Shown: positions 54,375-56,168 of the stretch, piece by piece | Position numbering within the stretch: position 1 is the stretch's first letter | Layout: each line of letters opens with the position of its first letter | Assembly: GCA_013368445.1 (NCBI GenBank) | Contig: JAACJO010000004.1 | Coordinates: forward strand, 2,170,001-2,234,000 | Reading direction: 5' to 3' | Source: Leucocoprinus leucothites | Lineage: Eukaryota > Basidiomycota > Agaricomycetes > Agaricales > Agaricaceae | Length of the DNA stretch: 64,000 nucleotides | Notes under the pieces: model-generated | The model's input: the letters and a program-made list of their open reading frames with translations, nothing else | Told to the model about the DNA's origin: nothing | Database searches by the model: none | Made by a program: the position numbers and the translations under genes

Positions 54375-56168
54375 ATGGCCAGGCTAGCAGCTTTCGCATC
54401 TTTGCTTGTGTTGATTCCCTTTGCTGCTACTCAAGTAGCGGAATGGGGACAGTGTGAGAGCCTCTGCTTCAACCAGTTCCTCCTGAGACTTACATGTTTG
54501 CGATGTTACAGGCGGTGGAATGGGCTGGAGTGGGGGTACAGTAAGTATTGAATCAACTCTCATCCATTTGGGACTAAAACCTGGCATAGGCCTGTGCGGC
54601 TGGCTTGGAATGTGTTGTTTTGAACCCCTACTACTCTCAATGCCTACCGGCTTCTAGTACCACCTCAGGCGGAGGTAGCACCACCACAACTACTACCTCT
54701 GCTCCTTCCTCTACCGCTACCACTGGGCTTAATGTTGCCGCCAAGGCTGCTGGTAAACTCTATTTCGGCACCGCCACCGACAACCCAGAGCTTTCTGATA
54801 CTCCATATGTCTCTATCCTGAGCGAAACCTCAGAGTTCGGTATCATCACTCCCGTAAGGTTTATCCAATGCATTCAGTCAGAATTCCTGATCGAGTCATA
54901 AATTCAGGGCAATAGTATGAAGTGGGACGCCACTGAGCCTTCTCGTGGAACCTTCAGTTTCTCTGGAGGTGACCAGATTGTCTCGCTTGCTAAGAAAAAT
55001 GGTCAGATGGTTCGTGGACATACCACTGTCTGGCATAGTCAGCTGCCGAGCTGGGTCTCTTCGGGGAATTTCGATAATGCGACGTTGATTAGCATCATGC
55101 AAAACCACGTTACCAACGTCATTTCTCATTATAAGGGTGAAATGTGAGTTTTTCTCGTTTGGTGGCGTTTGATGTCGTATCTGATGTCAGATTTTTAGTT
55201 GTAAGTACTGTAAGCTTGCATCAAGCATTCAAGCGTTGCTAACGAGAACAATTCTGATGACTGCTAGACGCTTGGGACGTTTGCAACGGTATGTGATACC
55301 GTTCATTTTGTTACTGTTGAGGGATCATATGAATGCTGATAATTCGGCAATAGAGGTTTTCAATGACGACGGAACCTGGCGTCAGAGTGTTTTCTCCGAC
55401 ACCATCGGTCCGGCTTTCGTGCCTCTCGCCTTCCAAGCTGCTCGTGCAGCCGATCCTGATGCTAAGCTCTATGTACGCCCCGCGCCTTCCAATCGACGTT
55501 TTCAGCGACTGATCTGAATGTTTCCCAGATCAACGATTATAATATCGATGGCACTGGTGCTAAGTCCACTGCGATGTACAACCTCGTCAAGTCCATGAAG
55601 GAACAAGGCATTCCCGTTGATGGTATCGGTATTCAAGGTCACCTTATTGTCGGCGCTGTCCCAACGACAATTCAACAAAACATCGAGCAATTCACTTCTC
55701 TTGGCGTCGAAGTTGCCTTTACGGAACTTGACATCCGGATGACTCTCCCCGTTACCGACGCACTCCTCCAGCAACAAAAGACTGATTATCAAAACGTCAT
55801 CTCTGCCTGCAATGCTGTTGAGAAATGTATCGGTGTTACGGTTTGGGATTACACTGACAAGGTGTGTCTAGACCTTTGATTTTGATGATCAGGGAGCTTC
55901 GCCCGGTTTAGCTTTACTTTTGAGTTGGGGATGACAGTGCTATGTTAAACATTGATTCCTGGGTGCTAATTTTGAACTTTGTGGTTGTTATTATAGCACT
56001 CGTGGATTCCGAGCACGTTTCCCGGTCAGGGCGCGGCTCTCCCTTGGGATGAGGTATGGATGATCTTCTAGCCTATTTTATTGTGTTCCTTACAAAACCG
56101 ACTTCTCTCTTCAGAATCTAGCCAAGAAGCCCGCATATGACGGTATCGTCAACGGGTGGACTCAGTGA
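54375..56168 (+). CDS. Endo-1,4-beta-xylanase GH10 with N-terminal CBM1
   Basis: Ten exons: 54375-54453, 54512-54540, 54590-54853, 54908-55143, 55199-55200, 55268-55288, 55354-55472, 55529-55861, 55997-56053 and 56115-56168, giving 397 aa. The signal peptide ([15 protein letters not shown]) is followed by a cellulose-binding module (W-G-Q-C-G-G-x-G-W-S-G, then A-C-A-A-G-L-E-C and Y-Y-S-Q-C-L), a Ser/Thr linker and the catalytic domain. The domain shows [15 protein letters not shown], the acid/base Glu in W-D-V-C-N-E and the nucleophile Glu in T-E-L-D-I-R-M. It would cleave xylan backbones outside the cell. The model needs a 2-nt exon at 55199-55200. The protein ends N-G-W-T-Q. Confidence 0.93.
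55199..55200 (+). other. Predicted 2-nt microexon (TT) of the CBM1-GH10 gene
   Basis: Exon 4 ends in phase 2 (G-A-A-A-T before GTGAGT) and the next recognisable exon starts with the last two bases of the Tyr codon. Exactly two bases are missing. TT at 55199-55200 is preceded by TTTTTAG and followed by GTAAGT, and supplies Ile-Tyr to give H-Y-K-G-E-I-Y-A-W-D-V. Confidence 0.7.

Follow-up and report, generated by a model that had tools for sequence, protein, structure and literature searches.

A putative two-nucleotide exon in a GH10 xylanase gene of Leucocoprinus leucothites and its recurrence among paralogous genes

A GH10 gene (g1) spanning positions 54375-56168 of the forward strand in the window, a 64,000-nucleotide stretch of the Leucocoprinus leucothites genome, very probably encodes an intact xylanase with an N-terminal CBM1 and, judged from its sequence, holds a real and normally included exon of two nucleotides. 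The ten-exon model (79, 29, 264, 236, 2, 21, 119, 333, 57, and 54 nt) is open throughout and encodes a protein of 397 residues comprising CBM1 and a full GH10 domain. Pfam scores are 51.0 bits for CBM_1 and 390.6 bits for Glyco_hydro_10 (PF00331), the latter covering the protein family model nearly completely (positions 2-310 of 311). The predicted xylanase motifs WDVCNE and TELD are both present; WDVxNE and TELD are presumably the GH10 motifs for the catalytic acid/base and the nucleophile. Compared with PF00331 and the solved xylanase 6jdt, g1 matches over its full length, and only its gene structure is unusual. Its features are as follows.

54375-54453, 54512-54540, 54590-54853, and 54908-55143, forward strand: exons 1-4 (gene model, Pfam), encoding the signal region, CBM1, linker, and start of GH10, with the 3′ end GAA AT
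55144-55198, forward strand: intron 4 (intron A), 55 nt, GTGAGT...TTTTTAG, phase 2
55199-55200, forward strand: exon 5, 2 nt, TT (gene model, spliced alignment, paralogues)
55201-55267, forward strand: intron 5 (intron B), 67 nt, GTAAGT...GCTAG, phase 1
55268-55288, forward strand: exon 6, 21 nt, ACGCTTGGGACGTTTGCAACG (gene model), stopping within the acid/base Glu codon
55354-55472, 55529-55861, 55997-56053, and 56115-56168, forward strand: exons 7-10, remaining GH10 and stop

The splice motifs listed in the initial annotation are all present: GTGAGT at 55144, TTTTTAG at 55192-55198, TT at 55199-55200, GTAAGT at 55201, and TAGAC at 55265. As had been proposed there, retention of TT gives the reading E-I-Y-A-W-D-V-C-N (GAA AT/TT/AC GCT TGG GAC GTT TGC AAC G), in which the two bases supply the third position of an Ile codon and the first of a Tyr codon and thereby bring back the reading frame together with Ile-Tyr, part of the strand that runs up to the acid/base Glu. 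The predicted mRNA junction is ..GAAAT-TT-ACGCTTGG.., and the predicted peptide crossing the site is HYKGEIYAWDVCNE. Exon 5 has the dimensions of a microexon, being internal, below ~25 nt, and flanked on either side by a complete GT-AG intron (55 and 67 nt). The asserted loss of frame without the two bases was likewise borne out: with the exon skipped, translation of g1 would end no more than 11 residues from the site, and that of the paralogues g2, g3, and g5 within 6, 1, and 5 residues, respectively. Given this frameshift and early stop, inclusion would be needed for an active enzyme.

A GH10 search of the 47.0-Mb assembly (110 contigs) retrieved at least five genes, g1-g5, along with a weak extra match at C9:13358 (E 0.02). 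Three of the genes, one with CBM1 and two without, lie within 16 kb (C4:2224375-2240331, from window position 54375 onward). The assembly also holds seven GH7 loci, which along with the CBM1 domain and the densely spaced short introns suggest an Agaricomycete that probably degrades plant litter or wood. Ordinary neighbors in the window include a TCP-1 chaperonin piece (9080-9913) and a DnaJ C-terminal domain protein (46833-48452). The paralogues relevant here and their two-base exons are listed below.

61487-63032, reverse strand: g2, a 10-exon GH10 gene without CBM1
62339-62387, reverse strand: g2 intron 5 (intron A), 49 nt, GTAAGT...CTTCAG
62337-62338, reverse strand: g2 2-nt exon CT, ATC TAC = Ile-Tyr (spliced alignment)
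62271-62336, reverse strand: g2 intron 6 (intron B), 66 nt, GTTAGT...CTGTAG
62250-62270, reverse strand: g2 21-nt exon ACAGCTGGGATGTGATTAACG (gene model)
C4:2240331-2238784, reverse strand: g3 (L009), beginning 4.8 kb beyond the window edge
C4:2239649-2239648, reverse strand: g3 2-nt exon GT (gene model)
C7:2037714-2037715 (L011:2715-2716): g5 (L011) 2-nt exon CT, between TACG and TGG

The exon occupies identical codon positions in g1, g2, and g3 (AT/TT/AC, AT/CT/AC, and AT/GT/AT), giving the codons ATT TAC, ATC TAC, and ATG TAT; the variable base is the third codon position, and the constant base opens the Tyr codon. The next exon is 21 nt long in all three genes, and its g2 and g3 copies start with AC or AT. 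The three proteins share pairwise identities of 58.2, 67.1, and 61.1%, with saturated synonymous sites (pS 0.77-0.82) and pN/pS of 0.26-0.34, which indicates that the two-base exon structure has outlived silent divergence and that the genes look constrained. Corresponding introns are mostly shuffle-like, and over all 16 intron comparisons made the shuffle fraction was ≤0.05 in just two (0.025 and 0.05), making recent copying insufficient as an explanation of the shared exon. The presence of the exon in sister genes makes a genuine feature look likelier than a sequencing error; the conservation evidence comes from paralogues of one genome. The g5 exon lies 5 nt downstream of the g1-g3 site in the aligned protein. 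The two sites are thus AT/NN/AC, in phases 2 and 1 (g1-g3), and TACG/CT/TGG, in phases 1 and 0 (g5). No two-base exon was found in g4 (L010), where one intron is positioned as the second of g5. The CBM1 domain of g5 is split by a 7-nt exon, ACGACTT (L011, C7).

Gene structures were compared using a custom splice-aware aligner with 6jdt as template, a cost of 14 bits per intron, and no term favoring tiny exons; the intron cost and splice-site weights were our own choice. The best spliced alignment contained a two-base exon in four of the five GH10 genes (g1, g2, g3, and g5, not g4). The margin over the best model lacking it was 10.9 bits for g1, 0.1 for g2, 2.3 for g3, and 18.9 for g5. When the intron cost was set to seven values between 8 and 20, the exon was kept at all seven in g1 and g5, at five in g3, and at four in g2, being lost at costs of at least 18 and at least 16, respectively. 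The predicted exons of g1 and g5 therefore stand alone, and those of g2 and g3 rest mainly on the shared site. Together with a gain of 11.2 Pfam GH10 bits over the single-intron rival and the recurrence in two paralogues, the performance of the g1 model at 7/7 intron costs supports the two-base reading advanced at the outset.

Two controls accompanied the alignments. Applied to nine non-GH10 genes, the same aligner returned no internal exon of ≤12 nt among 29 internal exons and 38 introns. This control covered nine of 19 fetched regions, leaving out six actin-like and four GH7 regions; two of the nine genes aligned poorly (35.9 bits for L030 and 64.2 for L040), and 16 residues of the PGK template were unknown. 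When intron interiors were shuffled, none of 250 shuffles reached the observed score in any of g1, g2, g3, and g5. For g1, the observed 132.8 bits compares with a shuffle maximum of 129.0 (250 shuffles); g2 topped the best of its 250 by 0.1 bit only. Some two-base exon also appeared in the best model of 41/250 shuffles for g1 and 20/250 for g5. Chance occurrence of the motif was estimated from 20000 dinucleotide shuffles of the g1 intron pair, the motif being defined as AG-NN-GT with both introns ≥45 nt and a Tyr/Phe codon. The bare motif arose in 9.6% of g1 shuffles, falling to 0.42% when YAG and GTNNGT were also required, making the motif by itself only moderately surprising. Gene by gene, the bare motif coding for the right residues had chance rates of 0.096 (g1), 0.0073 (g2), 0.025 (g3), and 0.032 (g5).

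The five GH10 genes contain 51 introns of 47-135 nt (median 55). The longest, intron 8 of g1 (55862-55996), measures 135 nt, and the other 50 measure 47-79 nt; intron 1 of g3 (L009) is GC-AG (GCAAGT), the sole such intron among the 51. To judge the splice sites, 43 other introns from the five genes served as the reference set. On that scale, the intron A donor takes rank 34 in g1, 42 in g2, 7 in g3, and 32 in g5, and the intron B donor takes ranks 19, 6, 6, and 37 in the same order. The intron A acceptor of g1 ranks 15 and is preceded by CTGAT 14 nt before the intron end. Intron B acceptors rank 2 (g1), 3 (g2), 16 (g3), and 1 (g5) and are weak in three of the four. In each of the four genes, intron B carries a branch-point-like CTAAC/CTAAT at a distance of 22-35 nt from its end (CTAAC at 25 nt in g1).

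The initial annotation had also stated that no other GT or AG would restore the frame, which did not hold. Enumerating g1 models over a short stretch gave one single-intron model (GT55137 to AG55267) and 13 two-intron models, TT included, that keep the frame without a stop; reaching further upstream gave two stop-free single-intron models, from GT55137 and GC55092, both to AG55267. It is homology that singles out TT among these. The nearest competitor is one longer intron, with GT55137 as donor in g1 and with the acceptor shifted 4 nt downstream in both g2 and g3, giving a protein 2-3 residues shorter. In g1 this intron would be:

55137-55267, forward strand: alternative one-intron reading, 131 nt, in frame, donor GTGAAA, HYK-D-AWDVC

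These single-intron models keep the frame without a stop in g1, g2, and g3; the g2 version trails by no more than 0.1 bit when the default intron cost is applied and moves ahead at ≥16, as does that of g3 at ≥18. Against this stands the requirement for different sites in different paralogues, giving HYK-D-AWD in g1 and Q-I-WDV in g2 and g3. Pfam GH10 scores drop from 390.6 to 379.4 bits (g1), 381.7 to 371.5 (g2), and 390.0 to 380.2 (g3), a cost of 9.8-11.2 bits, and the g1 product lacks three residues right before WDVxNE relative to all five solved relatives compared, of eight listed, three near-identical. With a score of 2.7, donor 55137 falls short of the 10% quantile of the 43 other introns (4.0), and the single introns would measure 121-131 nt, whereas the other introns of these genes span 47-79 nt, bar the one of 135. 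All single-intron models found for g5 drop at least six residues. Acceptor strength cannot separate the accepted from the rival sites, given the overlapping scores (2.7 and 2.4 for the in-frame rivals of g2 and g3; 2.8 and 2.2 for the accepted sites of g1 and g5). On balance, we give the single longer intron only a slim chance. Slimmer still is the use in g1 of an 11-nt exon, TTGTAAGTACT (donor GTAAGC), which adds three residues (E-I-C-K-Y-Y-A-W). Though in frame, stop-free, and the top remaining spliced-alignment model once the TT donor is barred, it is 10.9 bits worse, passes over the better donor GTAAGT, and implies a three-residue insertion absent from g2-g5.

An assembly error or pseudogene, with two bases missing from or extra in the DNA and one ordinary intron, is about as improbable as the 11-nt exon. 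A two-base change would likewise mend the frame of the single-intron reading, but it would have to strike the same codon in three paralogues, plus another in g5, and a pseudogene fits poorly with the rest of all five GH10 models being open and with the pN/pS of 0.26-0.34 in g1-g3. Recursive splicing sites (a zero-nucleotide exon, AG/GT) and stwintrons share an arrangement in which an acceptor adjoins a donor and removal is stepwise. On DNA, a stwintron, where an outer intron is split by an inner one and nothing is kept between them, looks similar to a pair of neighboring introns whose splice sites nearly touch. Unlike either, a g1-type site would have to leave two coding bases in the mRNA: the predicted frames of g1, g2, g3, and g5 require them, and joining the outer sites directly would bring a stop after at most 11 residues, which makes a stwintron the least credible of the four alternatives. 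Nor is a recursive AG/GT site found in g1 (AG-TT-GT), g2 (AG-CT-GT), or g5 (AG-CT-GT); g3 reads AG-GT-GTCAGT, where AG/GT is present, but its use would lose two bases and the frame.

Regarding the origin of the two-base exons, the groups g1-g3 and g4-g5 have just three of 25 intron positions in common, which favors separate origins for the two sites. A number of other introns sit close to one another in the two groups, offset by 2-12 nt rather than coinciding. The two exons may instead share a single ancestry through a joint 5-nt slide. The stronger proposal, that such exons arose twice independently in GH10, which would signal a hot spot or selection, we regard as unlikely. One example of selection acting at the strand to the acid/base Glu would be an obligatory splicing gate, with enzyme produced only after ordered removal of two introns and a frameshifted, early-stopped mRNA resulting otherwise. 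Tandem intron duplication was considered as the source of the pair and rejected, introns A and B being shuffle-like toward each other (fractions of 0.525 in g1, 0.94 in g2, and 0.16 in g5). The g3 fraction of 0.025 is one among 16 comparisons, and nothing is built on it.

A mechanism is suggested by the geometry of the site. Only two bases separate the intron A acceptor AG from the intron B donor, and splicing factors could hardly bind both together. Each short intron would be recognized across itself (intron definition), and A and B would be removed sequentially, one and then the other; once the first is gone, the two bases would belong to a normal exon. Because of this two-base spacing, we infer that intron definition with sequential removal is the likely mechanism.

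Tiny exons, down to one base, are already known, as described by Guo and Liu 2015 (PMC4674806), which reports a constitutive 1-nt exon in Arabidopsis APC11 proved by cDNA and reporter constructs. Its authors propose intron definition and removal of the introns one after another, and the earlier remark that the g1 exon is near the limit of splicing agrees with this study. The likeness is that both exons fall far below exon-definition size; the APC11 exon was, by that account, missed by annotation. The difference is that APC11 involves one nucleotide in a plant, with proof from cDNA, whereas the GH10 case involves two nucleotides in a fungus and is deduced from the sequences of four genes that belong to a single family. 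As told in the same source, a 9-nt exon of potato invertase is also spliced by sequential removal, the second intron first; it resembles the GH10 case in combining a tiny exon with two introns leaving in turn and differs in size (9 nt versus 2 nt).

What should surprise a specialist is the retention of a two-base exon in three old paralogues and the presence of a second, differently phased one 5 nt off in another branch of the family. Long-read work on Coprinopsis reportedly revealed many microexons. One- or two-base exons are invisible to most gene callers, and annotations will thus probably mark genes containing them as broken or change the strand at the active site. The present reading would amount to a correction to four enzyme genes of this genome, and g1-g3 together with g5 would form a natural set for studying the order of intron removal, whether U1 and an acceptor complex can share so small a space, and the origin of tiny exons.
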